Assembly (NCBI GenBank): GCA_012845835.1
Contig: JABAKD010000024.1
Location: 3,390,061 to 3,454,060, forward strand
Direction: 5' to 3'
Source: Undaria pinnatifida
Taxonomy: Eukaryota > Sar > Phaeophyceae > Laminariales > Alariaceae
Length of the DNA stretch: 64,000 bases
Part shown: piece by piece, positions 336 to 49,656 of the stretch
Layout: every line of letters begins with the position of its first letter
How positions within the stretch are numbered: position 1 is the stretch's first letter
Notes under the pieces: generated by a model
Databases searched by the model: none
What the model was told of the DNA's origin: nothing
Seen by the model: only the letters and a program-made list of their open reading frames with translations
Translations under genes and position numbers: made by a program

Positions 336-401
336 CTTTTCTTTCTCCTCCGGTGAGAGGCGGTCGATGTACACCTTTCCGTCAAGGTGATCATACTCGT
401 G
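336..401 (-). CDS. PDF: PDF exon 6 (motif 3, HEYDH)
   Basis: Encodes HEYDHLDGKVYIDRLSPEEK plus two codons. The two His are metal ligands and the Glu is the catalytic base. The acceptor is ATCCAG. A donor GTCAGTG follows the last AAG; read-through would instead give a short unrelated tail to a stop, so a further exon is likely. Confidence 0.94.
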
Positions 402-3400
402 CTGGATAAGCGAAAAAATCAGAGGGGAAATGAACGAAACAACAACAGAAGCGGGGAAAACAGTATAAGAAGTGGGAACTAATCGGTTAAAACAAGAATG
501 GCCAAATAGACCAAACCAAGTTCCTAAATAAGTAGGGTTGCTCGATGTACAAATGTACGCCAAGGTGGTCATAATCGTGCTGTTCAAGCAAAAGTCAGAG
601 GGGAAATGGCAAAAGGGGGGTTGGGAATATATCAAACATAAGGAAACTATCGTAAGAAACGAAGGAACTCGCTCGATATAGGTAAGAACTGGGCAAAAAA
701 TGAAGGCTTACCGTCGGGGGAAAAAAGGGGGCGGAGCGCTTGATGGACGTGTTTTTTGTTTGTATTGTTCTTAGGGATGAAGACAACAATAAATATGATG
801 CACGTCTTTTGAAGTAGACGATATGTAACAAAGAGCGGGGAAACCATTATGGTAAAAACTTTTCGGCACCCAGGTCCAGCGACCCAAAAGCCAACATACG
901 TGGGGCAAAATCAACCTTCTCGGAAGAGAGCGCGCAAACGTGAAACAAAGCAACATATCATATTGAGCTCGTGTCACACATCTCCTTCCCGTGGTACTTC
1001 GCACGCGCTCCCTACCCCCGCGGCCCGGCGCTTCTTCGCTTTTTCCGAAAGGCCGACGCCCTAATCTTCATCGATATCTGCACACTTTTCCTGTAAAGTC
1101 CCAAGGGAGCAACTAATAAAAAGGTCTGTTTGAAAACATAAAAAATCAAAACACGTCGTCGACTGTGAGTGCGATCAATTTACTGGTCGATACTCATCTT
1201 CGCAAGTTGCGTGATACTCCGACCGAGCGTATTTTCTAAGACATATTACTCTTTGAAGATATCGTACACATATGATACCCCTGGATGTTGCCAGGGTTAA
1301 CAGGACAATTTTACTACGAGCGATTTCGGCCCACAGTCATCCTACGCCCTGATACTATATAGCCCGTAATCGTCATCTATTTTATAAAAAATATTTCAAG
1401 CACGTCAGCCGTGAGTTCGACGAATTTCAGGTCAATACTCATCTTTGCAAGCTGCGTTGTTGGTACTTACTCCGGAGTATAATATACTATATGGGTGAGT
1501 TTTTATTTATACACGCTTGTCCTGTCCTCTGAAATCCCAGAGGGGCAACCAAGAAAAAATATACCATTTTTTTTTTCAAAGCGGGAAAATGAGGAATCCG
1601 GGGAAAAACGATAACGCGGCAACTTTTTACAATACAAGCGGGAATAGCGAACAAATCCGGAGATTGAGGAAACCAGGAAAAATGTGAGTAAGGTGGAAGA
1701 TTGAAATAAAGACGAAATCCTCGATCTCGCAGCTGAGTGTCGCTTAAATAAAAAAAAGAAAAGAAAAAAGAAAACGGCAACATGAGGAAACCGGGAACAC
1801 TGTGCTTTAAACTGGAGGAAAGTTGAGGATAGTGTTGGACCAACGAGTGTATTTTGTCGAATACCTGGTAAACGGCAAACTCTACATCTGTATCAAACCT
1901 CTCCTCTCCTCTCACTGTCCACCGCTCTACCAGTACATAACACTTCATAACCACTCCATGGGCTTGACATTCCCAAAATTTCGAGGACGCGTGCTACGAT
2001 GGTATACCGCTTTTTGGCTGAAACGGTTTCTGAATGACAGGCTTTTAACCCAAACTCGTCCGAATTTCATCGTTTTTTTCGCAATAATTTTCGTCGCATA
2101 CCTAGGCCATGGGATTGATTGTTCATCGAGTAGAACGTTTCTTTTTTTATCCAAATCCGCTTTTGGGTGGGGTATCGAGCTCCTAAATCAAGCAGCCATC
2201 CTCATCAGGCAAAATGGTGCGCCTCTCATCACACCGTAGCATGCGTCGAGGACGAAAAAAAATGTGTGCATGAATAAGAAACAATCCATAATGTACAGCT
2301 GTAGGTCCCCGCTGAAGCGCTACCTGGAATATTCTTGCGGTCCAGTCAGTGTATTTCTTCTTGACCTTCTTGCCCCGTGCATTCAACGCCTCCACTTTAA
2401 CCCAGTTACGTCGCTCTACCTGCCGACACGAAAACGAAACGAAACGGAATGAACCGAATTGAAATGAAGCGAAACGAAACAAACGAAAAAATAAACAAAA
2501 ATAATACGAACGAAACAGAACATAAGAGTAACGAAAAAATACATAAATGTGAAACAACTAACAAACGATATGCAACTAACACGAAACTAAACGTGACGCA
2601 TACAAAACGAAACGAAGTTCATCGTGCACAAACGAGCCGAAGCGTAGCTAAACAAAAACGAAATCGTGTGTAACGTTAAACAAACAAAAGTAGAACAACC
2701 GAAACCGACGAGACGAAACGGAACGAAAATAACCGTAACGAAAGGAAACACGAAACAACAGCAACAACAACAACAAAACGGCGATGATTCCACCCTGCCC
2801 TCCCCCATGTCGGGGAATGACAATAGTCCCTGATAGTCGGTATTTTTCCTTGCTGTGCGAATTTGACAGGGATGAATCTCACATGACCCCCCACAAAAAA
2901 GGCTAAAAAACAAACATATCTACGAATTTTGGGGCGATCGTTCCCACATCTTCCCCCTGCTAGCAGGTGGTTCATCATTTCCATATGTCCCCTCATACAT
3001 GAAATTACGGGGATGGTTCCCACCTGTCCCCCCATGTCGGGGAATGACAAGCATCCCTCCTCGTCGGTGATTTTTTCTTTCGCATACGAATTTTAGGGGG
3101 ATGGTTCCTCCCCCCCCCCCCCAGGAAATGCTTCATACTGTAAACGAATTTTACGGGATGGTTCCCATCTGTTCCCTCCAGGTGGTGGCTAATTATCTAT
3201 TACGGGGATGACTCTTACCTGTCCCCCCATGTCAGGGAATGACAAACATCCCTCCTCGTCGGTAATTTTTCCCTTCCCGGAAGCGACGATCCTCGGGTTG
3301 ACGAGGATAATCTCGTCGAGCCAATGTCCTGCGTCGCCCTCTTAAGAGGCGAGAAACGGCAGCGGCGGCGGCGGGCCGCGTTCAGTTGGACTACTCCTTT

Positions 3401-5769: not shown

Positions 5770-5844
5770 GGATAAGCGCCCGCTTCCACTTCCTGGGCGC
5801 CTGGTGACACTCCTGTCGAGCCATGGTCATTCAATAAACTAATG

Positions 5845-14474: not shown

Positions 14475-15360
14475 AAAACCATGGAACTAACCTTATTAGC
14501 CCTAACCCATACGCAATACCAGTGCCGCCCACTAGGGGGTCGTAATGACGTCACTGGGGTGAAGTGGTTAAAAATACCCAAGTGTGTATGACTGGGCTCT
14601 AAAGGGATTAAAGGCTGCTTGGAGCCTTAAAGCTTGCCTTCAAGCCGTTTGTGTGTCCAAACACAACGCCGTAGAATCCCCATCAACAAAAAATCATGGA
14701 ACTAACCCTATTAATCCTAACCCATACGCGATACCGGTCGAAGTGTCCCCTAGTGACGTCATGACGTCACTGGGGTAAAATGGTTGAAAAACCCCAAATG
14801 TGTATGACTGGGCTCTAAAGAGATTAAAGGCTGTTTGGAGCCCTAAAGCTTGCCTTCAAGCCGTGTGTGTGTTCAAACACAACGCCGTAGACGGGAATCC
14901 CCATAAACAGAAAATCATGGAACTAACCCTATTAACCCTAACCCATACGCAATACCGGTCAAAGTGTCCCCGAGTAACGTCATAATGACGTCACTGGGGT
15001 GGAATGGTTGGAAAAACCCAAATGTGTATGGCTGGGCTCTAAAGGATGAAAGGCTGTTTGGAGCCTTAAAACTTGCCTTCAAGCCGTGTGTGTGTCCAAC
15101 ACACAACACCGTAGACCGGAATCCCCATAAATAGAAAATCATGGAACTAACCCTATTAACCCTAACCCATACCTGGTACCTGACACGCAATACTGGTGGA
15201 AGTGCCCCCTAGCAACGTCATAACGACGTCAGTGGGGTGAAACGGTTGAAAAACACAAAAATGTGTCATCATTGGGCTCGAAAGGGATTAAAGGCTGTTT
15301 GGAGCCGTAAAACTTGCCTCCAAGCCGATTGTGTGTCTAAACACAACGCCGTAGACCTGG
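14475..15360. repeat. Tandem array of about 215-223-bp units, four copies
   Basis: ATGGAACTAACCCTATTA starts units at about 14480, 14696, 14917 and 15140. Each unit carries a GACGTCA word (TGACGTCA in most), the block GGGCTCTAAAGGGATTAAAG and GCCTTCAAGCCG. Units are about 85-90 per cent alike by eye. Confidence 0.9.
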
Positions 15361-15914
15361 AATCCCCACAAGCAGGGGATAGGGTAGATATTCTAGGCAT
15401 TTCGCAAAGAACCTTCCAAAGAAATTTCCAATTGGAATTCTCCGCTTGGAAATCTCTCTCCCTGTGGGCCGAAAGCGCGTTTCGAAATACGTCGCCCTTG
15501 TCCACTACTTTTCGGAATTTCCACAAAAAAAAAGGGGTATGAATATTGGTTCACCACGATACTCGCCGATCAAGGTGAATAAAGCACGTAGTTCTGCAAC
15601 AAATATTTTCACTCTAATTCCAAGTAATTCTCCCTACAAAACGTGGGAGCACGAGCCTTAAAATTTGCCTTATCCCTGATTACGGACCGTAGTGCGTGCC
15701 TTAACCATACGCCTTAACGCCGTCTGTGGCGTGGCTAGGGCCTACCCTAGGCTGCCACGTACGCTTTGCAACGGCCGAAAAGGAAGAAATGGACGACGAA
15801 ACCAATTAATAATTGCAAGCCCAGAACTGCAGCACTAAATTGCAAGTCCTGTTGTTCCAGGGCAAAACGCATTGTCGGAGTACCGGTAACCCCAATAGAC
15901 CACCCCCCCATTAG

Positions 15915-25200: not shown

Positions 25201-26489
25201 GTCGGGTTTGAAGGCCACGCTCCTGAACAACATCGAGGCCTACCTTGGCCGTCAGTTCGGGTGCGCCATTAAGTGTACATCGGTATCGGCATATATTGTA
25301 ACGGTCGGTAGTTGTGACGGTCGATAGGTGTAACGGTCGGTAAATGTAACGGTCGGAAGGTGTAACGGTCGGTAGGTGCAACGGTCGGTAGGTGTAACGG
25401 TCGGTAGGTGTAACGGTCGGTAGGTGTAGCGGTCGGTAAGTGCAACGGTGGACAGGTGTAACCGTGAACAGGTGTAGCGGTCGGTGGGGGTAACGGTCGG
25501 CAGGTGAAACGGTCGGTAGATTTAACGGTCGATCGGTGTAACGGTCGGCAGGTGAAACGGTTGGTAGGTGGCACGGTTGGTAGATGAAACGTTCGGTAGT
25601 CGTAACGGTCGGTGTGTTCAACGATCGGTGGATGTAGCTGTCGGTAGATGAAGCGGTCGGTAGGTGTAGCAGCCCGTAGGTGCCGCGGTCGGTCGGTGCA
25701 GCGGTCGGTAGGCGTTAAGGTCGGCAGGTATCACGGTGGGTAGGTGAAACGGTCGGTGCGTGTAACAGGGGGTAAATGTAACGGTCGGTGGATGTAATGG
25801 TCGTGGAGGTGTGGCGGTCGGTAGGTGAACCGGTCGGTAGGTGAACCGGTCGGTAGGTGAAACGATGGGTCGGTGTAACGGTCGGTGGGTGAAACGGTGG
25901 GTTGGTAGAACGGTCCCTGCGTGGAATGGTCGGTTGGTAGAACTGTCGATAGGTGTAACTATGGGTAGGTGCGGCGGTCAGTCGGTGTTACGGTTGGCAG
26001 ATGTCACGCTCGGCAGGTAGGGTATTTGCGGGATACCAAATTAGGTTGGGTAGGAAACCATAATAGTATTTGTGTTGAAACCGACGGATGTGATAGCTTT
26101 AGACGAATCCAACCCACGAAGTAGATTTGAACTGCAAAAAATGGTCGCCGGCTTGAATACTATTTTGATACTTTGAAGTATGTTTTACTACTCAAACACA
26201 TTTGGTATGTCGCAAACGCGCTAGTGTCACGGTCAGTAAGTGTGACGGTCGGTGGGTGTAACGGTCGGTAGGTGAAACGGTCGGCAGGTGGAACGGTAGG
26301 TAGGTGGAACGGTCGATAGGCCTAGCAGTTGGTAGATGTAACAGTCGATGGGTGTACAAGTAGCGGTCGTAGTTGTGTCGTTAGGTATAGTGGCGGTTGG
26401 GTTGTCGATGAGTTTCTCTGTCGGTAGGCCTGTCAGCCGGTGTGATGGGTAGGGTTGGCAGTCGGGGCAACGGTCTAAAGGGTTGCCGG

Positions 26490-26521
<32 letters not shown>

Positions 26522-29500
26522 ATTGTTGTTGTTGTTGTCGTTGTCGTTTCTTGGTTGTCGTTTTTGTATTTTGATGTTTGCTGACGTCGTGTTGCCTCTT
26601 ATCATGGGACACTACAGACCTGTACGGAACTATTGACGACACAGGACGGTGCTTGTGTTTCTGTGTTCCTCCTTACGTCCTTCCTCCTTAACGGTCTTTC
26701 GTTAGTTTCATGTTTCTTTTCTCGTTTCCCCTTTTTCTCTTGAAAACGAACAGCCAAGTGATGAGGTCGTCTGGGGGGGTGGCGTCACACGCCCTGGAGC
26801 TGGCTGCGGTCGCTGAGGAGATCAGCATGGGATACATGGACGTGCTGCAGAAGCGCCCTGTGGCTGGGACATATTCTCATCATACTGCCGGGGTAAGAAC
26901 TGAACTTCATGTCAGAGTAGTTCAGACAAGTGCCCTGACCAAGCAACGCGAGGCAGAACTTTCTGAAACCACCCTTCGCAAAGCTGGTTCGTTACAGTTG
27001 CAGTAAGTGTTGGTTGAGCAAGGGTACATTTGAACCATTTGTTGGATATTTCGATTTTTATTGCTGAACAGTAAATATGTCGGTTGACAGCGCTCTTAGC
27101 ACTTGACGTGTTAATACAGCCGTCAACAATTTTCCCACACCAAAATCTGATGTATGTCGTCGGAAGAGGCCAGCAACCTTCCCCTTGACGGTCATCCCCA
27201 CCCTGACGGACACCCGTCAAAGAAATTCCCGCACTAAACCAGTACGTTACGTCTACCAAGAGACCTTGACGGGTCAATTTTTTTCCCGTTGACGGACGTT
27301 CGCCCGGTTGACGGACATTCATCAAGGAAATTCCCACACTAAAATTGGTATATAACGTCTATAAAGAGACCTTGAAGGGTCGAAACTAGAGGCACCCTTG
27401 CCCCTTGACGGAATTCGCCCGTTGACGGACATCCATCAAAGAAATTCCCAGGCTAGAACTAGTATATTACGTGTAAGGAGACCTTGAGGAGTTGGAACTA
27501 GACCGTCATCCGACATGGTTTTATAGATTTTTTTTTTAAATCCGCCAGCTGTAAGGTCGATAATTTAAAGGGTCGATAATCATCTTTGCAAGCTGCTTGA
27601 TGCACCGTCTCCTGGCATCTTTGGTCGCAACGTTTTTTTTTTATATATCCTCTGGCGGATGCAGAAAAATGACCACACTTCCACTTATTTCCATACTTCG
27701 AAGTACATACCAGGTATCGTGTCAGTGTAACTCAATTGCATTCGCACTCGAGCGCTAGCTGGCGTATCCTTCGGTTCCCATAGCAATGGCAGCGCGATCT
27801 GTCCCTACCGGTGGTCACCGTACGGATGCGTTATCGTCGCAACGGTGGTTTCGAAAGTCTTTCGTTAGGGCGCGGTTTGAGTTCGAAGCTCGCATTCGCT
27901 CGAAATACGCAAGCGAGAAACACGTCCGGTAGTGCGTAGTGCACGTAAAAAACACGACCGATAGTGCGTAGTGCACGTAAGAAACACGACCGATGGTGTT
28001 CAAAGAACAAAAAGTGAAAACACGGCGGCGGCCCTGGTCACCGAGTATGCTCTAAAAGCCTCTTCCATACAGCAGAAACCAAACTATCCTCCCCCAACCC
28101 CCCCCGAAAAGAACACAACGCTTCTGCTTTTTTTTATTTTTCTAATGAGTAGACGAAAAAAGGAACAAATTTAACCCTGACACAAGCTGTAGAAACCAAA
28201 AACCGAATATTTCCTCCGCCCCCATTTTTTTTAAAGAAATTAAGCGAAGCATAACAGCGCGCGTCCGATATTTTGGTGTGATCAAGAAGGTGAAGCAGGA
28301 CGGCGGTGGCTTTGGTCAGCGCGCCTTGGCCCCGCTGGCGAGGGGAGGGGCAGGAGGCGGTTCTTCGGGGGCGGGGGGAGGGGCCGCGCCGGGGTGGGAT
28401 GGGGAGGCCGGGAAGGATGTGCTGCGCCGGTCGGAGCTCGACCCATTTGTTGAGGTGTCTGAGACTGTCGGCGGCCCTGCGAAGCTGGAGCGTGGGTCAG
28501 GGTGAGTGGGCGGCTTGGGGTTGGCGTTAGGGCTAGTGCTTCCCTGCTGTGGAGGGATTAGGGTTTGCTAGGGGTACGAGTATCTGGTGTGGCAGGGGTA
28601 GGGTTGTTGTGGTGGCCGGGTTGGGTTTCTGCTGTGGCAGGTTGAGGGTTAGGGTTAGGGCGAGTGAGACTATCGGTGTAAGTGAGCGTGTTGGAGAGGG
28701 GGTTGGGGTTGGGGACGTTTTTGCTGTCGCAGGGTTAGGGTTGGCGTTGCTGTCGCGGTCGTTTAGTTAGAGCTATTGCGACTGAGGCTATCAGCGTAAG
28801 TGGGCGTATTGGAGAGGGGGTTGGGGTTGGGATGCTGTTGTTGTGGCAGGGTTCGGGTTAGCGTTTCTGTTGCGGTGGTAGGGTTTAAGCTGTTGAAGGT
28901 TGCGCTGCGGCGGTCGGGGTTAGGTCCCTTCGTGGAGGTGACTGAAGACTATCAGTGGCCTGGCGAGGCTGGAGCGTGGCTCAGGGTAAGTGGGCGTGTT
29001 GAGGGGGGGGTCGGGGATACAGGTGGGTTGGGTTACTGCTGCTGTGGCAGGTTAGATTTGTAGGGTTAGGTTTGTTTTGGCAACGTTGGGGTTACTGCAG
29101 CTGTGGCGGGGTTAGGGATTTTGCTGGGGCAGGGTAGGGTTAGTGCTACGGAAACTGTGAGTGGCCCGGCGAGGCGGGGGCGTTGGTTGGGGTAATTGGG
29201 CGAGTTGGGAAGGGGTTTGGGGTTACTCGGGGTTAGCGGGGGTTAAGGTTGGGGAGAGGGTAAGGTTTTGTGCTGTTGCCGTGGCGAGGTTCGAGTTGCG
29301 GAAACTGTGGGCAACCCGGCGAGGCTTTGAGCGTGCGTTGGGGTGAGTGGGCGGGCTGGCGTTAGGGTTGGGTTACTGCTGCCGCTTGCCGTGGCGAGAT
29401 CAATACGGCAAACTTCAAATGGCTTCGTTTTTGCTTTCTCTTATTTCTTTACGAACTGTTTTGTGTTGTGCAGGCCGCAGGATGGAGTGGTGGTTGGCTT

Positions 29501-32500
29501 TAACCTATCTCAGCCTGTGATGGAGGCGACTCGGCGCTCGCTTGCGGCAGATAAGAGGTATGTTTTTTTTTTTTATGGGGCTTTTTCTTGGCTATTAAGT
29601 TAACGCCTTTTCAAGTGGCAACCCGTTTTGTTGGGACGAATTACTTGAAAATAGTATAGCAATATAGTTTGGAGGGTTAACCCGTTGGGTAGGGGCTTTG
29701 AGTTCGCTGATTGTAAGTCGCCTCTAATTATTTGTTAGCTATTTTGTTGGCTACAGTACGCAATATAGTTCGTTGCGTGTGGCACGTTGCGGAGTTTTTG
29801 GGTCTTGTGCGTCTGTCCGACGCTTCTGTGGCTCGACGCGTGTTTTTATGATTTGTTTTTTACGTCAACCGCCCGCAATAAAAATGTCATAATTGTATCA
29901 TTGTTAGGCATACGTCAGTTGTTGATAGCTGGCGTAAAAGTGACGAGAGGAAAGCGCCAGAGAGCGTGGGTTAGCAAAACTCGGTAAGAATTGACGAGCG
30001 TAAAAATCTGAAACGTGGGATTTGCTGAACCCTATGCGTGATAAAAACGAAGGCGTGTACCGTTGGGGAAGAAGGAAAGACACCTGTGACCACGGCTTTT
30101 ATCCAGAAGGTCACTGAGGAGGGCAAAAGCTCTTACGGGTTGAGCTCGGTAGTCGGAGTGATTGTTAACAAAAAAAAGGCTTTTACTCACGCTACCCAAC
30201 TAAGAACTAGCCGTGAAGTGAAGAAAAAACATTTATTTTCACGGTTCATGCACCGGCTCGCGGGTCGGTTTGTGATGTGCTCCAAAACCCGCGTATCGAG
30301 TCGGGTTTGGTCGGGAGGTGTTGGAAATCTCACGGGTCGATTGGGGTCGGGCCAGGAAGTTTTCAAGCATTACGGGACGGGACGGATCACCCTGGCCCCG
30401 TCCGATGACCCACGGGAAGGGATCCGACCCATGAAAAACCCCCAAAAAAAAGCGCTGCAGTCCCCCGTTCTCGGCCTTCGGAGACCAAAAAGAAAGAAAA
30501 CGCACTGGTATACAGTACCGGACACCAAATAAGAAGACATAATTATTTACCCAGGGTGGGTTTCTTATTTGGGTAAAGGAGGCGTTCTTACACTTTTTTT
30601 TTTTTTGCCCCAGCGTACCGGCTCTTTATTTTATTTTTTTTCCGTGGTATTTCAGCCCTTATTTTCTTGTTTTTCGCCGTTTCTCATTGTCGTAATATGG
30701 CTCTTAACGCCGTTACCGAAACCCGTGCTGGGGGGAAAATTACTTGAAGAGTTAGTATAGATAGGGGTTTGGGGGCTCTAAAGGGGTTGAAGCGGATACC
30801 CCAATATGCTTGCAACTGTCGTGTCGTCAACCATGTGCGCTGGTGAACGGCACAATATAGAAAAAACGTACCAGGGACCTGGTAAATTATTTTCGGACGT
30901 TTTCGGTCGGACGCCGCGGATCTCCGACTCGACTCAGCTTTCCCCTACCCACCCCCTCTACCCCCCCCCCCCTGCTGGTATACGTCCACACCCTGGACAA
31001 TAGGTTCCAGGTCAACAGGCAATCGGTAGGATCCTATTCCAATAGGAGGCCTATTGTTGCTTGTGATAGGTATCGATTGGCACTTTTCAAGCTTATTGTG
31101 GCGGGCAATAGGTATCGATGGACACCTTCGTTGATCTATTGTTCGGCCAATATTGTATTTGCATGTAATATCGAAACCTATCGGTGAAACAGATAACTAT
31201 CGATAGGAATTTCCAGAGCTTGCCTGTTCGGGCGATAGACTATTGGGACTGCGAGACGATACCTACTGTTTCTAACGATAGGTATAGATATACATTTAAC
31301 CAAACCTATGGTTTCGGAAAATGAGTATGGGCCCAAATTAACGAAGAACACGGGAAATCGTACTTCGATTTAATTTTTTTAATTTCATGAAGAATACACG
31401 AAAACATCGACGCTGCTTCTCATCAAGGAACGGCGTAGTGCGTTCTAGAATAATAAAAACGCAAAAGGGTAGACGAACACCCGTGGGCAACGACCGAGGC
31501 GAGCGATGGCTCACGTCCTCCCCGGAGCGCCGCGGCTGGCGGCAGATTGTTTTTGCCGGCAGCAGCTAGGAGGCTATAGCTCTAGGCGTCTCTTGAATGG
31601 GCTGGCGCCGCCCGGCCGCCCCACACGGGCAGCAACAACGGGGATATAGCGGTCGAACTTCTGTGCGAAGTCGTGATGTGGTAGTTGGTCGTGTAACTTT
31701 CGAGGTGCAGGGCGACGAAAAACTGGGTTTGCGCCGGTCTCGATTGTGTTTGAGGCGTCGCAGGCGGTCTAGACTGCTAAGGGCCTTCGGAGACCGCGCT
31801 GCGGCTGCTCCGGTGGTCCTACCTCTCGCAATGGTGCCTTCTCGCCTTTAAATCAGCCGACGACATGGCACAAATTCGCGTGGCCGGCTTCGGTTACATA
31901 TAGAACATGCCATGCCTTGGTGCACAAACTCCCCAAATTGAATTTCGATTTTCGACGAAATTCGACAACAAAAGTATTTTTTACTTGTGTATTTGATTTT
32001 TCGTGACAATTCTGAGAATGCCTGCTCGGTGATTCATTTTTTTCACCAATCAGATGCAAGTTAAATGAATTTCTAAGAAAGACATCGAATTTCGATTTGG
32101 CAAGTTCCTCGGTAATCTGGGCCCTATCGATAGACCTTTTACAATTCTATTGTTTCGGGCGACAGGTATTGACAGATCTTTCACCATTCTTTTGTTTCGG
32201 ATGATAGGTATCGGTACGTAGACCTTTCGCGATTGTATTGTTTCAGTGTTGGAGAGTAAAGGCGCTCGAAGACAACCCGTCTCGGTGCAATCAACTCTTG
32301 TTCGCCAGTCATCATCCACACCGCACGCCCCTCCAGCCCCGCGGAGAATGCCTGAAAACGGCGCTGTCTGTCCTTTTTGTGCCCTAAGAAGCTCAAGGTG
32401 GGTGGTCTCAACAAGGTAGTAGTACTTTTTTGTGTGTTCGACGCGAAGCTCATGCCCGCAGTGTTGTAGAGCGACCTGTTTGTGTGCCGTTGGGTTCCTT

Positions 32501-35500
32501 CGTATACCCTGGATAATATCCTATCGAATAGGCTGTTGGGCCAACAATAGGTCGGCAACTATGAGGATCGATACCTATTGCGGGGCACAATAGCTCGGCT
32601 TCGGGGTCTATCGATAGGTATTGTAAGCATCAATAGGGTAAGAGCAGTGGCTATAATAGCCTATCGTGCGACCGATGTGCTTGCGAAGGTGTATATCGAT
32701 AGGCATCTTGGGCACCAACATAATTTGAAAATGAATCCCAACAGGCTATCGTTCGAACAACACCTTTTTATCGCCACCAATCAATACCTATTGGTTAAAG
32801 CGGTAGGTGTGCGATGATATCGATCGATACCTATTGCTCAATGTATTAGGTTTGCAAGGGTAGCGATCGATGCCTATAGCCCATTTTAATAGGTTCTCAA
32901 GGGTATCGATCGATACCTACTGATAATCTTGTACATTTACTCGCAAGGGTTTCGATCGAAACCTACTGCTTGTAAAAGCATACCCTCGTATTGATTAGTA
33001 CATATCATATCTACGAGTATACGTACCGCATACCCCGGGCTATTGTTTGAAGCAATACCTTGGATGATATCATATCAATACGTACCTTGACCTGCTCCTT
33101 GCCTTCTGTTTCAAAACAGCAGATTTACGATAATATTATAAAAAATTAAAATATGTTTTTATCGATAGGTTTGTGAGGATTTCAATCGGTAGCTGCTGCT
33201 GCTGCTGTTGAACAAAAACACCTCTCGCTTTTTTTTTCGAGGCTATCAATCATTCCAATTCCTATGAACCTATTGGGCAAATAAATAGGTACCCATTGAT
33301 AAATTCACCCTCCTGGTGCAGGTTACAATAAGGGTTGATATTCAATACACCAACTCGACCCCACCAACTTGTGGACAGACCAACAGGCGTCCTCAATACA
33401 TGGACTATTGTACGGGGCTTTATACCTACTGGTTATAGCAATAAATATCGATCGACAATTTCACTGACCTATTGATCAAACAAGAGGTATCGATCGACAC
33501 TATTGGTCACAGTAATAGGTATCGATCGACAGTGTGACATACCGATTGTAAGAACAATAGCCTATTGTGCCGATTTATGAGAACCTATTAGTCGAAGAAG
33601 TAGGTATCGATAGACAGATTCATACACCTATCTAAAGAGCAATAGGCTATTGTACCAATTTCTCTGGACCTATTGGTCAAAGCAATGGGTATCGATTGAC
33701 AAAATGGCGTACCTATCGAAGGTTTCAATAGGTATTCGATATGCCATACCCCATCCTATTGACATCCAATAGGCATTTTCCATAGGCTATTGTCCAGGGT
33801 GGGATACGTGTTCCCGTATTCTTGAACGCCTCTGTTGGACTTGTTATTGTGTGGGAAAACGGCACTCCGGAGGGTCGAAAGGCGCATATATTGATGCAGG
33901 CGTACAGGTTTATCAAGAATAGAGCTTCCCCTCCCCTATCTTTCCTCTCCACCCCCGCCTCTGCTATATAATCCCCTAATCCCCCACCCACCCCCCCTGT
34001 CTCTGGTCGTGGCCACACCAGAAATAACGAAATATAGAAGCCGTCATCCAACATGCAAGAATGTGCGCACATGGTGCGAAAGTCCGCCTCCCAAATTGTT
34101 GTTGGTAAGATGCAGGTCGCCCTTCATGCTACTCGCCGAACACCTCACGGCGTTTCGCGCTTGGTGCACGCAATGCCTGCGTGGTGGGTGAAAACCCGAC
34201 GTACTTCGTCCTGACATTTTAGGGATGCAGGGGTCGATGGTCTCAAGACTACGGCTATGTATGAAATGAGTACCCCCCCCCCCACCCCGCCCCCGCGCCT
34301 CTATGTCATACCCTATCCCCGCGATAGTAGTGTACCCATTTGAAGACCATTCGGTCTAAGACCATAGTAGAGATAGGACCAAGTACATTGGCTTGTCAAG
34401 AAGAAGAAACTACTTGGAAATTAGTGTATAGAGAATTTTGGCAGTAGGTAGCAGATAAGACCATGGTAGAGATAAGACTACCTAAGTTGGCTTGTGGCGG
34501 GCTGGTCTTAAACTGGGTACATCACTGTATCCTTGAACGCAAACCTGTGTTGGTTTTGCTATTGTATGGAAAAACAGCACACCGGAGGGTCGAAAATCGC
34601 ACATACTGTTGCGGGCGTACAAACTTAACAAGAACGGGAGCAGCGGCGGAGTGGACCGGGATTTGGAGCTAGGGGGGCATCTTTGGCCACTGGAGTCGGT
34701 CTGCCAGGTCAACAGAAGCTTTCAGCAGCTCAAGCAACGCAAGGTGTGGATCCCGCCGTCTCGCTCGCTCTTGGATTTGTGAGGCGTTTTTATGAGTTTT
34801 TTTTTTTTTCCTGGGGCTTTTCGTGTGGGGGGATTTCTTGCTTGTTTTTTTTCGATCGCTGATACTCCGCTTGCTTGATGGGGTGCTGCTTGATTGATGG
34901 GGTGCTGCTTGATTGATGGGGGGGGTTGGCGTGCTAGGGAATGAGCCAGTTTTTCGTTGCTCGTAAGGGTTTTGCTTGTTGGGGCTGTTGAATGAGGCTT
35001 TCCCTGAGGCTTTTCGTTCAGTTTTTTTGTACGAGTTGTTTTGCTGGCGAACTTTCTTGTTTTTTTGCTGCGGCCGTGGGTTTGCCTTTTTTCTCTCTGT
35101 CGTTCGCTGGCTGGCCTTTCGTTTTTTTTTGCGGAAGGCGCGGAGGGAGGGGAGCAGGGAGGCGGGCGTAGGGGTCTGTCTAGGATGGGATGGCGTTTTC
35201 GCGTAGTTTGATGGTCTGCGCTGGGGGTGTGTGTTTTATGTTGGCGCTGATTGTTGATGCCGAGTAACTCATGCTCACGCTTGCGGCAGAACGCCGAAGG
35301 ACAACCCGGCTGCAGCGCATTAAAAAATTAATCCTACGTTTTGCGCGATGACTGAGCCATACATTGCACACCTCGTTGCATGATCGTTGCATGACAGGTC
35401 ACGACCTAGAGCATTTAGATCCTATAGCTGCCGTCATGAGATGTTGTGCAGGATCTGTCTATTTAGATATTATAGATCATATAGCTGCCGTCATGAGATG

Positions 35501-38173
35501 TTGTGCAGGATCTGTTTATAGATCAAATAGATGCTATAGCTGCCATCATGAGATGTTGTGCAGGATCTGTACGTAGAGAGTACAGGTCCGAAACCCTTGG
35601 GAAATTTGCTGGATCATACAGATCGTACGGTTCCCACCGGGTAACATGAGGTAAACCGTACAGACCTTCCCTGAGATATCTGAATCATCGCCTGGGGTTC
35701 TGTGTGATCTGTCTGACTTGTGAAGCAATGTTGAGGAGAAGATTATTAGAGGTAGGGAACCGAACCAAGCATAATCTGGCTTTTATTTCGAGAGATAATT
35801 TCGGAGGCGTTTTGGTTCATAACTCTGAGGTTGAAGAATTGGCATTGATTGCATCGGCTTGACGGTTCTGGTGGATCGTGTTAGCGGCTATACCAAGTGG
35901 CCACAGCACGGAACGGTGCTGGCAGACTGGTAGAACACGCGAGCAGACAGTCGTGCTGTTGCTAGTAGCTGGCCGGCAGCTGCGGGGCCAGGTATTCGTG
36001 ATTTCTGCCTGACTTGTGAAACAGCCTTTTCTTGGTGCACCCACTCGTTTAGGGACAAACTGAGTGCTGAGTGGTACGAGTAACGCGCGCAGGCGTAACG
36101 CCCAAAGCCTTCTCACGATTACGCCTCAACCCGAAAATGTCAAAAGTGTCGCTCAAGTCCTTGCTGGTGTTCGTTCTTCCCATGCACGGCGCTGTGTAAC
36201 TACCGTTTCATAATTGCGGCGCAACCGCATTTCATTATTTTGCTGTGTCCCTTGGTTGATGTAGAGTAACATCTTCTCGCGGTTGCGGCGCAACCCGAAG
36301 GTATGTTATATCCATTGTAAGTCGCACGTTGTGTGTAAATAGATGCCATCACTGCACGAAAAAATTGGCACAATTACAATGTGTTGGTAATAGTGCGGGG
36401 GTGGAATAAACTGTTGAGTTCAGCTTTGTTTATGTTTTTTTGTTTTTTTTTCAATCCTCCAGCGAATGGGGAAAATTAACGCTCAAAAGCTCAGCACGCT
36501 TCTACAAAAGGTAGTTTTATATATTCAGGTGTGCCGATTTACCTACGTTGTAGATATTCAAACCGGCGCTAGCTGGCGTGCTCCTGGGTTCCCGTGGTAA
36601 CTAGAGACGGCGCGAGCTGGTTAATGCTAGTTCAGGACATTAATTAATTGCTGCCTTCAGGGGAGTTGCTACAGAAGTACGTAACAATGCACGGTAGGGG
36701 GCTGCACTTTTTGAACCAAGCGTTTCTTACCGGTTGAGCTCCTCCAGTGTTTGAACTATCGGTTAGCATGATATTCTCACGGGTGTGCCTAGTATCTGTT
36801 CCAGGATTAGCGCGGAGAAGTGCCGATCGGGCTGCGGGAACGAATGCCTTGGAAGGCATGTGTCGGGTGAGATATTGAGCTCCTCATGCTTGCAGCTCAG
36901 AAACTTCTTAGAATGTTCTGCACCCCCTTAGCGTGGGAGGACTCCAAGTGCAGAAAAATACGGTTTCACGCATGCTCATGGTTGCGGCGCAACCCCAAAT
37001 GTGACCCGTGCCTTTCTTTGCAGGTGTTCTTCCAGGGCACGACGCGCAAGCTGAAGGGGGACTGCTCCCCTCTAGACATCGGACACGCCTGCCGCCTAGG
37101 GGAAAACCGAGTGGAGCTCTACAGTTCCGACCCAGACTGCCACGCCGTGGTGGTTCAGGTATGGTTTCGTGAATACCTGGTATATGACGCTGTTTTTCGC
37201 TACCCTGGTACGTAGCTTCACACCGTTCGTCCCTCGAAGAAAAAATAGTTAGTGCTTGGGGGATTACGGTAGTATGGATTGCTCAATGTATTTCGCCCAC
37301 TACTATGTAGCAGTTGTTTTAATATTGTTTGGTGTTGTGCTTTGTGTGAATAAATTGCTAAATACCTGGTACGTCGTTTGTGGCACCGACAAAGCGCGTG
37401 TAAATACCGGTCGCCCCGGTGGCGTATCAAGTTATCCTCGAACCTGTATAGATCAGTTTCGTGAGTTCGAGCCCCCCCGAGTGCATACTCGTACTCGTAT
37501 GAATTCGTGGGGAATTTTTCTTGTGCACAAATTGACTTGCGGAAAGCGCGAGAGCGTGAGTTAGCAACACTCGATGGAAAATCGACGAGCAGTGGGATTG
37601 CTGAACCCTACGTATGCGCGATGAAAATTGAAGGCAAGAACCGGGGGGAAAAGGACGACTCCTGTGACCACGGCTTGTCCAAAAGCTGGAACGCAGAAGT
37701 GTGAGAAAAACAAAACAAAAATACTTGGCTCTTTAGTTAAAATAGTATTGTAAGCATTTTTTTTTTTTACAATACAACATAGAATGACAAAAAGACACTC
37801 AATTTTGCAAGCTGCGTGTGATGCTTCGATAGCGCGTGCGCGCCGACCTACATGTGTCTTGTATACGGGGGAAATGTTTTATGTTTTGTTGTTTTAGTTG
37901 TTGGTGCCAGGCGAAGAAGACGCGACAAAACTGGGGTGGGAGACAGGACACCGTCTGTTTTTGTCGTTGTTCTCGTGTTTTAACCCCTTTCGTACTGTAT
38001 CCACACGTTGGGGATAACATTCTTGGAAAATGTGAGGGTGATTTTGTTCCCGCGTCAACCGCGTTAACATAGTTTGAAGACCGTTGACCGTTACCGTTGA
38101 GTTGTGGAAAGTTTTGGTCGCACCCCACCCCGCCCGGGTTGTACGGAGCGTGGTTGCTAAGAAGTATATTTGG

Positions 38174-38205
<32 letters not shown>

Positions 38206-38291: not shown

Positions 38292-38328
<37 letters not shown>

Positions 38329-41300
38329 AGTGTTAGTATTTAAAATACGTGTCGGTGTTAGTGTTGGTAATGATGTGGTGTTGGTGTGGTTGGTGCGGGT
38401 GTTGGAGGTAGTGATAAGTGTTGGTGTTGGTAATGCTGGTGTTGTCATTGTTGTTGTCGTTCCGTTGTCCGTTCGTAGCAATCGTTCGTTGGTTACCCAA
38501 GCATTTGTTTGATTAGTAATTCCTTGCCTGCTACCTTGTGCCAGTGTCTCTGAACCGTGCTGACTTTCTTTCGTTCTTCCTTGACGTGTTTGTGTGCCCC
38601 CACCTTTTTTTTTTTTGGCCAGACCGTGAGGCTGGTCGGTGTGGACGAAGTGCTTCGGAATATCAAGCAACGCTCTCACCTCACGAAAAAGGTCAGTCTA
38701 CAATTTTTCTCGCTCGAGACATGGTGATAGTGTCTGCCGCATTTGTAGGGCAGGGAGTTGGCTAACTCAACGTCCCTGACTAGACTTTGAGCATGGCATT
38801 GGTACCTGTTGTAGTCGGATGCCTGGTGCGTTTTATTTGTCTGCTTGAAACTTGTAATATACACCAGGTATATATTTTGGAAAGTCGTGAACGAAACGGA
38901 AGGTTTGCTTTTGATTTTCACGCCATTTCCATTTGTTTTGCTTGCGTTTTCTTGTTTTTGTTTTTTGTTTTGGCGTGAGCAGATGCCCTCCATCGAGTGA
39001 CGTGATGTTCAAGCGGTGCCTCGATTTCGTCGCTGGGTATAGTAATATTTTTATAGAAATATAATATAGAAGAGAAAAATGGGAGATTTCGGAAAAGAAA
39101 AATTGAACGAAATGAAAAATGGATTTCAGACCGGTGACATTGGAAGGCCAAAAGTTTGAAATTCCCGAAGATCCCAGCTAAAGTTTGCCACAACGGTCGC
39201 CTATGGGCCCAATTTTGTAGATTTGTTCTTTGGACCTTTGCAATTTTTCGGATTTTTTTTTTTCACGGCGATCTTGACGAACATCTGCTTGAGAATTTCT
39301 CAAGCAGATCTTGGATTAGACGCGGCTTGATTTCGTGTTCTCCACACACTTCTTTTGACAAAATCAACGACATCGTCGTGAACTCTGAACGTGGCGAGCT
39401 CGTTAGGGCCTCCGACCCCCCCTTGGTGTACAGTGCTCACTCTACGGCCGGTGATTCGTGGCGGGCGCCGATCAGGCTTCTGTTAAAAACACATTTGGCG
39501 GCTAATGTGTAGAACACTGAGACAATAACTCTATCGCCTCCCACCGGGCGAAATAAATGATTTTGAGAGGTGACGGAAGACCACAGGACAACACAAGCAA
39601 CCTCTCACGCCCTAGGGCATGGATCGAGATGGATTCTTCAGCGCTGTCACCTATACTCATGTGACCTCTTCCGGAACGACGAGGAGTGACGATGGGTTGT
39701 CTCTTTCTCGAGATCGAAGGTCAATCGTGTTTGGTGGACGATGTTGATCAAGGCTTGATCAAAAATTGACAAAGTGACCCATTGGACCGCATGACCCCAA
39801 AAAAGGGCCAGAAAAAAATGTCAATTCTTCCCCATAGCGACGTTACCCGGAATCTTTCAGCAAATTAGCCCCAAAAAAGGTTTGGAATCTTTTTGGCCAA
39901 ACTTTCGGCTTTCCATTAGCATCGGTCTCACATCGTTTTTTTTTTTTTCATTTTTGCTTTTGTTTTGGCGTGAGCAGGAGGCCCTTCGACGAGTGAAGCG
40001 ATCGTTCAAGGGGTGTCTCGACCTCGATGTCGCCGCGGGCAGCAGCGAGGAGGAGGAGGAGGAGGAGGAGGACGATGGCAACGGGGACAGCGACGATGAG
40101 CTCATGGCGACGTGCACGAGGCTTTCCCTGCGATGTCCGCTCGGTCTTGTGAGTGGCGGGTTTTCTCATGGGTCTGTTTTTTGCTTCGTCGTCTTTGTTT
40201 GCCGTTGATTAACCCTGTTGCTGACGAAAGGCTAAGGCCTGCCCTCCACTAATTTCAAGCTGTTTTCCCGAACAATGTGGTCGTAATTGTGAAGGAGTTA
40301 AACTAACCCTTTTTACGTTCTGCTGCTGAATGCATGCGACACTAATTCCAAGTAGTTATGTCTTGGCCCAAAGAAGCCTTGACGCGGCCGAAAAGACCGG
40401 TCTCCTGTGTACAATGACGTAGTTGCTTAGACCCCCCCCCCTGTCCTTTCTGCAATGTTGTTGAGTTTCAGGTGTCGATAACGTGCCCGGGTTGACGGTT
40501 AGAGTAACACTAGCATGTATAGGCCACACGAACCGTTGACCCGCCCAAAAATCCCGGTCTCCTATAATATAATAGCACTTTTGTGTAGACCCGACCTTCC
40601 CCCCGCCTCCCCTCCGCAATGTTGTGGAAACCCGGGTGCCGATAACGTGCCCGGGTAGAGGGTTACATTATAACTAGTATGCATAGGCCAAAATAGGCCT
40701 TGACGCTCCCATAGGGTACGCTATCCTAGGTTTAACCATGATACAAGTTTAGACCCCTGCCCCCCGCCCCCGTTTCCTCCGCAATATTGCTGAAACCCAG
40801 GTGCCGCTTTCTTGCGCGGGCAGAGGGTGATTATCAAATGCTTCGACCTGTAACCCCCGCCCTACCCATCTCCTTCCCTCCTCTCCCCTCCGCAATGTTG
40901 TTGAAACCTAGGTGCCGATAACGTGCCCGGGCAGAGGGCGATTCTGCAAGCATCTCCAGTGCTTCGACCTAAAAACATTCCTTAATTTTAACAAGGACTG
41001 CGCCGGGGCCGCGTGGAAATGCGGCGTGTGCAACATGCCTCTTAGACCCGGTGAGACCTGTGGTGCTGTTGCTGGTTGTGGGGGGAAGGGGGGAGAACGG
41101 GGGGTAGAGGGGGGGAGGGGGGCAGGGATGGGGGGGAGGTGGATGGTTGGGAGGGGGTTGGGAGCGGGGGTTAGGGGTGGTAAGGAATTGCAGCGTGTGT
41201 AACACGCCTCTCTAACCAGATAAGAGTTGTGGTGCTGGTGGTGCTGGTGGTGGTTGCGGGGGGATGGGGTGGATTGGGCTGGGTTGGGCTGGGTTGGGCC

Positions 41301-44300
41301 GGGTTGGACTGAGCTGGATTGGGCTGGTTTATGGAGGGGTGGTTGGGGGGTTGGGGAGGGGGGCGGTTGGCGGGGGAGGTGGTGGTGGTGGGGGGGGGGG
41401 GGGGGGGGGGGGGGTTGTTGGTAGTGGCCGTGGGTGGGGGGACTGGGGTGAGGGGAGGATGGTGGTGCTGGTGGTGTTGTTGGTGATGGTGGCAGCGTTG
41501 GTAAGGTTGTAGATGTTGCGTCGGTGCTTTTTCTCTTTGGTGAGGTGTTTTGTATGAGTGTCCTCCTCCTTATCATCCTTCCCCCCGCCCCCCCCCCCTC
41601 GTCTCGTTTTTAGTTTGTTTTCTTCCACCTGTAGCGGACCTTGTAGTTGATGTCATGCACTTACTAGGGCGAGGTGATCCGCACCTTGGAGGAGCAAGGC
41701 TTGATCGACTAGGCCTTTCAGCCCCTTTAGAGCCCCAAAACCCCTCCAAATACTAATTCGAAGTAACTCTTACCCCAAAAAGGCGTTTCCGTTGGTAAAG
41801 GCGTTAATCCGCCTGCTCGTTATCCTCCTTTTCCTTATGATCCTCTTGTGTACCCCTCCTCCTCATCCCCCTTTTTCCACCCGGCCCACATATTTTTTTG
41901 ACGCTTTATAGCGGACCTTGTAGTTGATACATACTTGGACGAAGTGGTCCGCACCTTAGAGGAGCAGGGGCTCACCAACGAGGCAGAGGAGGTGGAGATT
42001 CACAAGGACGGTCACTGGGACCCCATCCTCGAAGACCAGAAGGTATTGCGCGCAAGTTATGTCGAGATGTATGGAGGATTATACCATCCTGCACAGAAAT
42101 GTACCACCCCGATCCGGAAATATAAGAAACGTTTTGTTTTAATATTGATGTGCAAAGGTTGCTTATAATCACAGACATATTGGTAACGACTATTTGAGCA
42201 TTCATGTGTTTTATTTGCCCTGTTGGAGGTGTCTATTGGGAGTAGGAACGGTGGTCCATCTCAAAAGGGATGCATGGTCAACGATCAAATAACTAGGGCA
42301 AGCATCAATGAGTATGCTCCCAGTGGTCGGTGCTTTTCCGTCCAGAATGGCTGTGTCCTTTTCGCTAGGCTTATAGACTCTATACCGTCGTGGACCAAAG
42401 TGTAGGGACCATTTGAGTGTTCATGTTTTCACCCGAACGGCAGAGGTGTACCCTTTTTTGCATCTGAGACTCCTAACCCTTTGAGGAGCTCTGTACTAAT
42501 CATAGTATATACGTGTGTCCTACAACCGGTCGCCCCGGTGGCGTATCAGGTTATCCTCGAGCCTGGTGCAGGTCGGTTTCGTGAGTTCGAATCCCCCCGA
42601 GTGCATACTTGTATAAATTCGTCGGGGAATTTTTCTTGTGCACAAATTGACTTGCGGAAAGCGCGAGAGCGTGAGTTAGCAACACTCGATGGAAAATCGA
42701 CGAGCAGTGGAATTGCTGAACCCTACGTATGCGCGATGAAAATTGAAGGCAAGAACCGGGGGGGAGAAGGGACGACTCCTGTGACCACGGCTTGTCCAGA
42801 AGCTGGAAAGGTCAAGTGTGCAACCTTATACTAACTTGAAGTAAATTTGTAAAAAAATGGGTTTCCAGTTGTTGAGGAGACGCGTGCTACGATATTAGAG
42901 GTGCCCCACTTTTTTTTGCTGAGGTTACTCAAGTTGGGAGCTCAACACCTCTCCCAAAAGCTGATTTGGAGAAAAATAAAACTGCTATTATCCCGGATGA
43001 AAAAATCCCATGGCCTAGGTATACAACAAGAATAATCATGCAAAAAGAAATTGGCGTTCTTTTCCCGACGATATTGGGGTTAAGCAGCCCCGTCATTCAG
43101 AAAACGTTTTCGCCAGAAAGAGGTATACCTTAGCACAATCTACGACGAATTTTGGGTTAAGGAAGCCCCGTCATTCAGAAAACGTTTTTGCCAGAAAGAG
43201 GTATACCTTAGTAGAATTTACGACGATTTGGGGTTAAGGAGCCCCGTCATTCAGAAAACGTTCTCGCCAGAAGGAGGTATACCTTAATACAATTTACGAT
43301 CATTTTGGGTTAAGGAAGCCCCGTCATTCAGAAAACGTTTCAGGCGAAAAGTGCTACCTGTATAGTAGCATACATCCTTTCCTTGAATATAGTATAGGGA
43401 GGCATTTTGGGACTCTAAAGGGGTCAAGGAAAACCGACAAAATGTTGTATCTTATGAAGCATCCCAGGGCCTAGGCATGCTACAACGAAAAATACTGCCA
43501 AAAACATCGTTGACCTTCAAGAGGATGTGGCTTGACCCCTTTAGAACCCCCGAAACCCCTCCCTACACTAAGTTCAAGTAATTTTGTCCCCAAAAAAGGT
43601 TTCCAGCTGTAAATGCGTTAATGAGCCCCGTCTTTTAGAAAACGTTTGAGCCAAAAAGTGCTCCTGCTACCTCCATCGCAGCGTACGTCGGGGTCCACGG
43701 CTCTCCAGACGTGGGTGGAGAATTTCACCGGTCCAACACTACTACCGACCCCGGTAGCGTACGTCGGGGTCCGTAAATTTCCGTCCAGCATGATATCCAC
43801 TATTACTATGCGTTTTATGCCCCTATTGTAGCATACACGTCGAGGTCCGTGCATTTCCGTTCAGTGTCATATCCACTACGCTTGGAAACTAGCAACCCTT
43901 TCATAACCCCTTTAGAGCCCTTAAACCCCTCCCTGCACTAATTCCAAGTGGTTTTGTCCTAAAAACGGGTTTCCAGCTGTAACAGAGTTGGCTCGCACCC
44001 TTAATAATCAGTTAACCTTACCCCCTACCTTTAGAGCCCTCAAACCCCTCCCTATACTATTTCCATGCGGTTTTGTCCCAAAAATGGGTTTCCAGCTGTT
44101 AAGGCGTTAACCCGTACCCTTAATAATCAATTCACCTCACCCCCTACCTCTAACCATAACTCTTTTACAGTGGGTACCCCGACTTCAGAGCGCCTCGCGA
44201 CAAGCCGAAACATGCGCTCTTTACCCCTTTAGAGCCCCCAAACCCCTCCCTATACTATATCCAAGTAATTTTGTCCCCAAAAACGGGTTTTCAGTTGAAA

Positions 44301-47300
44301 AGGGTTAACTGCATAGTTCCCTTATCTGGAGTGGGAAATATACCATAGCGTTTTGGTATAGGCGGGGCACTCCGATTTGACCGCTCCTAAGTTCCGAACG
44401 GTCTTATCCTGGGCGCTCTTATATCGGGGGTGACCACTGCGAAACCCCTTTCCAACTCTTGGCGTTATCCTAGTGAAGTTCCAAGTCCTTTGTCCCCATG
44501 TCTGGAGTGCGGTGCTAAACGGGTTAACGCGGTGGCGGCAGGCGGGCAAGGGTAAAAGGGTAGGCGAGATCGGGAAAAAATAAAAAAAGTCAGAAAAATC
44601 TTTGGGCGAAAAAGTACTTGGTACCACCTATCGTGGAACACGCCTCCAACCATCAACCCTGCTCTGATCCTTAGGCCGTTGTGTATGGTACCGCGATCCA
44701 GGTCACAGATGTTCCTGACATTCGTTTCACCGCCTAAAGATCAAGATGCCGACGCAAGATTTCCAGTGTGTATGGTAAAAACAAGTCCAGAAGCAGAAGC
44801 TAACAGTATTGTTCAATGTATCCGTTGACATTTTTTCGAGGGGCGGTTGTATGATTTCGAAAACCCGAATCACACACAAACGCGCCACAACACGCTACAG
44901 ACCATGGCGATCAAGGTGCGCGAGGGTCAAGCGGCAGCTGCTCGGCAAATGTCCCAGGGGGCTGCCGCATCTTCGCGAGTTACTGCTGTGCTGTGCGTGT
45001 GTTCCCGGGGGGGCAAATTTGCGGCCTAACCTCGAGACAATATCTGGAGAAGAAATACCTTGTCCCGATCTCAGCCTGAGATCGGGACGAAACACCCGTT
45101 TTCGATGGATTTTCCGATCTTGAAAGTTGTCAGAACCAACATTCGTCTCCGCATGCAGTGTACACAGATCTTTCTTGGGGCGAATCTTGTAGAGATCAAG
45201 ATCTATGGCCTACATCGGGGTACCGTAAACATTGGCGTTAGCTCTACCGTTAACGAGGGCTTTTCACGGATGAACCGACCCGGAAAACCTCATGGATCGG
45301 ACCGGGTCGAGTCAGGAAGTGGTCCAAATCTCACGGGATCGGTCTCGAATCCGGTCGGGAGGTTTTCAAATGTCACGGGTCGGGTCGGGTCGAGTCGGAT
45401 CACCCTGACACGACCCGGCCCGCAAGAAATGACCCGACCCGTGAAGGCACTGCCTTTAATCTCATTGGGACTTGACGAAAGTGTACTTGGTAGGGACCAA
45501 AAAAAGACGATTGCGATAGGTTCAGGTGTCTGGCATTAGCGTGTCAGTCTTGTTTTGCCCTTCGCAAGTCTCGAAGAGGTTAATCCGCTGCTTCAATTGC
45601 CGAACGTGCCCCCGCACTATAGTAGCTCCAAGTGGTTTAGACCCAAAACGCGTGCGTGTACAGTGCTGACGGGTTATAACCCGAAGCCTTAACCCCTTAA
45701 GAACCCCTCCTATACTAAATTCAAGTAATATTGTCCCCCAAAACGGGTTTCCCGCTGTGAAGGCGTTAAGCCTACCCATAACCCTACGTCTCAAAACCCT
45801 TCCTTTTAACCCTAGCTAACCCTTTAACCGCTGCGACGGCAGGCGGGCAAGAGTAGGCGGGATCGGAAGAAGACTCAGGCGGCCGCTGCTGCTGCTAGTG
45901 GCGGTGCTCAGGGGGGCATGTCGACATCGCCCGATGTGATTGGTGTCCTCGAGAATGGAGGTAAGAGTGAGTGGTACAGTGGGGTGGGATGGGGTTGGGT
46001 TGGGTTCGCTTGGCTTGGCTCGGCTTGGCTTGGCTTGGCTCGGCTTGGCTTGGCTTGGCTTGGCTTGGCTTGGCTTGGCTTGGCCTGGCTTGGGTTGGGT
46101 TGGGTTGGGTTGGGTTGGGTTGGGTTGGGTTGGGTTGGGTTGGGTTGGGTTGGGTTGGGTTGGGTTGGGTTGGGTTGGGTTGGGTTGGGTTGGGTTGGGT
46201 TGGGTTGGGTTGGGTTGGGTTGGGTTGGGTTGGGTTGGGTTGGGTTGGGTTGGGTTGGTTGGTTGGTTGGGTTGGGTTGGGTTGGGTTGAGGTAGGTTGG
46301 GTTGAGGTAGGTTGGGTTGGATTGAGTTGAGTTGGGTTGGGTTGGGGGTGGTTCGGGGTGTGGTGGTGCGGAGTAAATGCCTCCCCGTGGTGTGCCCAGC
46401 GGATCGTGGAGAGGTGAGGAATGTCCGAGGAACCTCGTTCGCATGTCGTCTAGGCTTTGCTTCTGTCTCCGCCCTCTGAGTAACGTGCGCGACCTCAAAT
46501 CGAAAGTCCTGCGAGGACGTAACTAACGCCCTTTTTTTTCCCCTCTTGTATTCTCTATATCCGTTTTGAGTATCGCGTATGAAATGATAGCTCAAATCGG
46601 AAATCGTAACGTAATGTGTTTCTTGCTTCCGGTTCTCCTTTTGCTCCCACCCCCAGGCGGCAACCCGGAAGACTCGGCGGTAGATTTGGATGGAGACGAT
46701 GCTGTGAGTGTAGCCGTTGGCGGGGGCGCGGCGGTCGACTCTAGCCCCCCCCCTGCTGCGCCAGGAGCACCAGCAGAACCAGCTGAACCTGAACACGAAG
46801 TGTTCGACCTCTCCCTCGACAGCGACGAAGACGAGGAACCCCCCGCCCCCATCGCCCCCCCTCCCGCCCCTCGGCCGGTAGACAACACCCTCGCCTCTGC
46901 TGCTGTTGCGGCTGCTGCTTCTGCCGCGGCGGCTGCCGCGGTATCCCCCTTGCTCTCCCCGGTTAACGGCATCGGTGGAATTAACGGCAGCGGAAGCAGC
47001 CACGCGGCGGTAGAAATTGGGAGCACCAGCAGCAGCAACAGCAGCCTTTCTAGCACTGGTGGTGGCGGCGGTGTTGATGTGGGCGGCGGTGACGTCGGCG
47101 GCGGTGGTAATGGTGGTGGCAGCAGCAGCAACTCGGCTGCGGTGATGCAGTTTCGAATTTCCGACATTCTTTCGGGAGCGAGCGCCTCTGAAAAAGCCCG
47201 ACACCCCGCGCCCGCAGCCAAGAACGGCGACAGCAGCAGCGGACGGCAACCGTTGGAGCTCCCCCCACCTCCCGCCATGGACTCGGCGAACGCTTCTGCG

Positions 47301-49656: not shown

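Follow-up and report, generated by a model that had tools for sequence, protein, structure and literature searches.

Both genes recognised in a 64,000-nucleotide stretch of the Undaria pinnatifida genome (GenBank assembly GCA_012845835.1, contig JABAKD010000024.1, positions 3,390,061 to 3,454,060 of the forward strand; hereafter the window), a putative peptide deformylase and a putative SUMO ligase, have introns containing partly decayed, same-strand copies of the edges of adjoining exons. Such copies, which we term echoes, also occur in other genes of the 511-Mb assembly of 68 contigs to which the window belongs. They are likely to stem from a neutral, short-range, same-strand duplication that affects introns and intergenic DNA alike, includes exon edges by happenstance and leaves the extra copies to drift. 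The main evidence is a comparison of rates across 17 genes, where local copies with an alignment score of at least 40 were found for 21 of 147 exon edges and for 216 of 1275 probes placed in intron interiors (Fisher p=0.48). Exon edges therefore look like bystanders of the process and not like its targets.

Window genes and their exon-edge echoes

The exons of both window genes were re-placed by eye from the sequence, and the joined frames are open. The minus-strand gene is, judging from its Pfam match (Pep_deformylase, PF01327, E 8.7e-52), a peptide deformylase (PDF). The joined frame of the plus-strand gene matches zf-MIZ/SP-RING (PF02891, E 9.3e-16), and the gene is therefore taken as a PIAS/SIZ-type SUMO ligase, a name inferred from the domain (hereafter the ligase). 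The window set comprises 29 placed boundaries; the acceptors of ligase exons 3 and 5 and the edges of the last exon were omitted as unplaced. Probes of 100 nt centred on each boundary were aligned by Smith-Waterman (SW) with 1.5 kb on either side, short-period repeats being masked. The reversed controls of the 29 edges scored 27 at most. A same-strand copy was found at 6/29 edges with a score of at least 40 (reversed flanks 0, reverse-complement flanks 0) and at 7/29 with a score of at least 36. A self-comparison of the whole window at E<=0.01 gave 173 same-strand and 56 opposite-strand pairs, against 5 for the reversed sequence. The real exons or edges and their copies are as follows.

3219..3328, minus strand: PDF exon 4 (real), from which two donor-edge echoes derive; by-eye placement, open frame, PF01327
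3004..3081, minus strand: PDF exon 4 donor, echo 1; 195 bp off, 63/70 identical, blastn E 2.3e-21, SW 105 vs reversed 20
2783..2874, minus strand: PDF exon 4 donor, echo 2; about 423 bp off, blastn to exon and echo 1, SW 59
336..401, minus strand: PDF exon 6 (real); by-eye placement, open frame, Pfam match
542..608, minus strand: PDF exon 6 acceptor echo, AG retained; 176 bp off, blastn E 1.7e-10, SW 70 vs reversed 25
28414..28520, plus strand: ligase exon 3 donor edge (real), exon end 28501; blastn, by-eye placement, SW
28897..29004, plus strand: ligase exon 3 donor, echo 1, with GTAAGT; SW 71 vs reversed 22
29154..29207, plus strand: ligase exon 3 donor, echo 2; offset 690, SW 43, blastn to echo 1 E 1.3e-5
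29301..29400, plus strand: ligase exon 3 donor, echo 3, with GTGAGT; offset about 840, blastn E 8.7e-8, SW 61
33816..33919, plus strand: ligase exon 5, copy of the sequence (34527-34634) just 5' of or inside the exon; 711 bp apart, E 1.2e-18
38972..39024, plus strand: ligase exon 8 acceptor echo (real exon start 39978); SW 52 vs reversed 27
40912..41050, plus strand: ligase exon 9 (real), SP-RING part; zf-MIZ PF02891, by-eye placement
40449..40491, plus strand: ligase exon 9 acceptor echo; offset -440, blastn E 4.5e-5, SW 57
40595..40662, plus strand: ligase exon 9 acceptor echo, AG changed to GG; offset -277, blastn E 1.5e-17, SW 97 vs reversed 22
40776..40832, plus strand: ligase exon 9 acceptor echo; offset -111, blastn E 5.9e-10, SW 69
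41184..41243, plus strand: ligase exon 9 donor echo; offset 169, SW 36 vs reversed 21
41632..41699, plus strand: ligase exon 10 acceptor echo, TAG retained (real exon 41912-42042); blastn E 5.9e-10, SW 57 vs reversed 20
44524..44554, plus strand: ligase exon 11 acceptor echo, weak (real exon start 45843); SW 35 vs reversed 20

An original prediction, made from the letters of the window, had listed ten such cases (exon 9 of the ligase twice). Eight of them are genuine exon-edge copies, although that of exon 11 is weak, its score of 35 falling just below the count cut of 36. The exon 5 copy is also genuine, and it was excluded from the edge counts because the acceptor is unplaced, while the supposed copy of exon 6 is a 19-nt match to the intron flank alone (score 33) and holds no coding sequence. 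The same orientation of the echoes and their spacing of 0.1-1.3 kb were upheld in the window. The first echo of ligase exon 3 belongs to a longer blastn pair (28414-28660/28897-29151, E 1.2e-18). The strict alignment of the exon 9 donor ends 8 nt within the exon, but the blastn pair 41015-41074/41184-41243 (E 4.5e-5) spans the edge.

Copy rates at exon edges and in intron interiors

The 17 genes, all from one assembly, comprised ten chaperonin (CCT) genes, five proteasome genes and the two of the window. CCT exons were located by their match to PF00118 and their introns resolved by frame, profile coordinates and splice consensus; 79 of the 81 exon matches entered the analysis, the other two falling outside the genes retrieved. 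Introns could be resolved where the profile coordinates adjoined, which was so for 50 and gave 100 edges. Of the proteasome matches 15/52 were used, from five genes with 9 introns (18 edges), and myosin matches went unused. The pooled interior counts include 11 window introns, the others being omitted because their edges were unplaced.

The pooled rates are equally close at a score of at least 36, with copies at 25/147 edges and 252/1275 interior probes (Fisher p=0.51), and the same holds for CCT genes taken by themselves (17/100 and 74/429, reversed controls 0 and 0). Within the window at a score of at least 46, local same-strand copies were found for 6/29 edges, 32/208 intron positions and 52/342 intergenic positions. 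Exon middles were poorer in copies (5/79 at a score of at least 36, with probes of 80 nt and not 100), as expected if copies must not disrupt the exon. The echoes came from 10 of the 17 genes, the remaining seven having none at a score of at least 36, which bears out the earlier claim that they recur in unrelated genes. Matches to another fetched region were found for 1/21 edge echoes.

These figures count against two of the explanations that could be offered. Similarity by chance or low complexity might be suspected in a region rich in simple repeats. It has next to no probability here and is excluded by the reversed controls, which with repeats masked gave 0/147 edges and 0/1275 interiors at a score of at least 36; reverse-complement copies were likewise found at 0/147 edges, whether the cut was 36 or 40, and at 36/1275 interior probes with a score of at least 40. 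A process specific to exon boundaries, growing introns by their duplication, was the model of the original prediction, and the frequency of edge copies and their spread over more than half of the genes speak for it. Nevertheless, the edge rate equals the intron-interior rate, both pooled and in the window, and interior positions have copies (92/425) and multiple copies (32/425) about as frequently as edges do (25/147 and 12/147). We consider this model very improbable and reject it for the sampled genes, where exon-edge copies are not enriched, an outcome that the prediction itself had named as refuting, even if this sample is narrower than the genome-wide survey that had been proposed as a check.

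Position, strand and decay of the copies

Within flanks of 2.5 kb in both directions, the 25 echo-bearing edges have 50 copies, and every one of them lies on the intron side, that is, downstream of donors and upstream of acceptors, with none beyond the exon. The same avoidance is seen in general pairs. Only 1/93 spaced pairs within gene spans (at least 100 bp between copies) straddles an exon, where random placement of these pairs within their genes gives 16.1 +/- 3.4 and was never as low in 2000 trials; the 93 pairs form 61 clusters and array pairs are non-independent, although the deficit stays large. Strand is biased too: over 256 kb the ratio of direct to inverted pairs was 176:7 within 1.5 kb and 28:8 at 1.5-10 kb. 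This sequence holds 71 separate duplicated loci, of which 32 comprise two or more pairs; copies cover 8.9% of its bases, transposon-like pairs included.

Many of the echoes come in sets, with 2-7 copies at 12 of the 25 edges. The longest follows a CCT exon ending at L007:9444, where seven donor echoes at offsets of 190, 274, 357, 435, 522, 605 and 688 form a ladder of about 83-bp steps that spans L007:9445 to L008:about 145; by eye, 4/7 retain a GT at the splice position or one base from it. Another CCT gene (L011/L012, C29:7283501-7299500, minus strand) has three echoes of the donor of its first matched exon, at offsets 111, 231 and 400, with GT kept in 3/3, and other multi-copy edges show sets at 124/249 and at -92/-186/-360.

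The copies include intron as well as exon sequence. In 20 of the 25 alignments inspected (17 CCT and 8 window, including exon 11) the match extends 3 nt or more past the boundary in both directions, and the first 20 intron bases have a mean identity of 0.66-0.70 (25 cases). Copying of the intron flank together with the exon means that the event took place at the DNA level and not from spliced RNA, so that an RNA-mediated origin is ruled out. Since edges were set by frame and splice consensus beside a profile match, and the echoes lie beyond them, no new intron is inferred.

As had been proposed, the echoes enlarge introns and decay. Real edges and their echoes share an identity of 0.849 in the exon part and 0.811 in the intron part, against 0.760 (exon-like) and 0.748 (intron-like) between one echo and another; all values were taken within aligned stretches and are so biased toward similar positions. 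This contrast matches what copies drifting beside a constrained exon predict. The further claim that the redundant splice site decays preferentially did not stand. The splice dinucleotide is exact in 26 of the 36 copies that cover it, and other dinucleotides are retained at 0.707 on the exon side and 0.623 on the intron side; as these values are similar, the redundant splice sites show no faster loss than the remaining sequence. Neither dinucleotide retention nor echo-echo identity gives any sign of selection on the echoes in the 17-gene sample.

The window contains other repeats besides the echoes. An element of about 300 bp is found in two ligase introns (37406-37703 and 42525-42820, 91% identical), with a related piece at 29937-30109 and perhaps, by eye, an inverted copy near 60300-60660; it has a tRNA-like GTTCGA(A/G)CCCC box (by eye) and looks like a tRNA-derived short interspersed element (SINE). 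A diverged element of about 85 bp has at least six copies in ligase introns 9 and 10 (41714-45781), at about 41722 in the former and at 43531, 43906, 44028, 44224 and 45702 in the latter, and a partial copy outside the gene at 60180. Two long pentanucleotide arrays (TGGGT-type at 45980-46346, GGCTT-type at 50002-50474) lie within or just beyond the ligase gene, and long arrays with a 16-bp period (TGTAACGGTCGGTAGG) lie upstream of it (25297-26018 and 26224-26356). Away from recognised exons, a local duplication outside both genes forms an array of four 216-bp units at 14475-15375 (84% matches by Tandem Repeats Finder).

Origin of the copies, known parallels and meaning

The process is probably one of contiguous tandem duplication. 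Short-range same-strand duplication would be frequent, the units measuring from tens of bases to a few hundred and often multiplying into minisatellite-like sets, and a duplicated stretch would sometimes span an exon-intron boundary by chance. One copy would keep the working boundary because it is joined to the exon (at donors the 5'-most, at acceptors the 3'-most); the others would come to lie inside the adjacent intron. Selection would hold the exon copy and the others would drift as neutral DNA, splice site included, until indels or insertions had worn the set down to a lone, spaced echo. That the molecular step was contiguous duplication (by slippage or unequal exchange) we infer from the same strand, the confinement to the contiguous intron, the ladders and the rarity of jumps across exons, which together point that way. 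Insertions or decay would then account for the spacing.

Several observations weigh against this reading or parts of it. The proteasome genes have fewer copies at edges (1/18) than in interiors (26/131), and 30 of the 123 interior clusters recur in other regions; together with the inverted partners of interior probes (36/1275), these recurring clusters indicate a transposon-like component in the interior background and a clean interior rate somewhat below 216/1275. With regard to tandem origin, 17/21 edge echoes look spaced, their extended alignment being less than half of the offset. The 15 youngest loci, whose best pair is at least 90% identical, divide into 5 with adjacent copies, 2 with gaps of 6-50 bp and 8 with gaps above 50 bp; contiguity at the start is therefore not demonstrated for each individual case. 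Such spacing could have arisen from subsequent insertions, indels and drift, but it could also have arisen by repair capture of nearby DNA. An earlier count, in which young interior pairs were mostly adjacent or nearly so (12/13), was dropped as support because few loci stood behind it and the recount per locus gave 5/15 adjacent.

The repair alternative is rather unlikely in our view. Here a break in an intron is repaired by inserting a short stretch copied from neighbouring DNA, as with the doublets of mammals and the repair-mediated duplications described in vertebrates, so that the copy is spaced from the start and passes through no tandem stage. In its favour, the edge copies are short, with a median extended length of 64 nt, and mostly spaced, the gaps at young loci are often wide, and human repair duplications, in the account given in PMC2671141, are for the most part found within 3-5 kb of the sequence copied. 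As we read this model, it should also place copies across exons and in inverted orientation, and this is at odds with the 0/50 edge copies and 1/93 spaced pairs that cross an exon and with the 176:7 excess of direct pairs. A functional role, with echoes kept by selection as alternative splice sites or decoys, might be argued from the 26/36 exact splice dinucleotides and from some strong consensus sites (e.g., GTAAGT). It seems hardly credible given that retention is similar to that of other dinucleotides and echo-echo identity is alike in exon-like and intron-like parts.

The echoes have counterparts among known systems. Minisatellites, or variable number tandem repeats (VNTRs), consist of repeated units in ladders, like the seven-copy CCT set with its 83-bp steps, although here the terminal unit is an exon edge under selection. 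The mammalian "doublets" of Thomas and colleagues (2004) are reportedly short paired duplications, with identical or nearly identical copies below 100 bp, and are said to have a same-strand bias; we know of no exon-edge survey of them. In the potato RdRp gene, a new intron arose from a tandem genomic duplication that crossed an intron-exon boundary (PMC4974935), whereas the copies studied here, as far as frames show, remain in the old intron and drift. Repair-mediated duplications in human are portrayed as short, proximal and ongoing through evolution (Pace et al., 2009, PMC2671141), and they resemble the echoes in being short proximal copies that occasionally include partial exon/intron pieces (4/824 donors, by methods too different for a comparison with our edge rate). 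They differ in that copies less than 50 bp from the source were excluded in that account and one inverted case is described, while our copies are nearly all direct and seldom cross exons. Tandem repeats in Ectocarpus are described as spread relatively evenly over the genome (PMC12477816), and a process that takes no account of exon edges would agree with this, provided that the genome studied here is a relative. The literature matches listed include isolated examples of a tandem duplication that crosses a boundary, but nothing among them surveys exon-edge echoes; from this we claim no absence in print. Boundary-crossing tandem duplication is already published, and the useful part of this work is the frequency and the polarity of the copies.

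Exon-edge echoes can be regarded as tagged duplications. Because the original is known and selected while the copy drifts by itself, the direction, decay and relative age of local duplications can be read without a second genome. The multi-copy cases, one exon being followed by as many as seven extra donors, offer a natural experiment on how the spliceosome selects one of several nearly identical sites lying close together. Echoes also supply raw material for intron lengthening and, to go by the potato case as described (PMC4974935), sometimes for new introns. More tentatively, short tandem duplication may have an unusually high standing rate in this lineage. About one exon edge in six would then lie beside one or more near-copies of its own splice site, splicing would routinely have to pick the terminal copy from a ladder of closely similar donors or acceptors, and the process may be a main contributor to the long introns.
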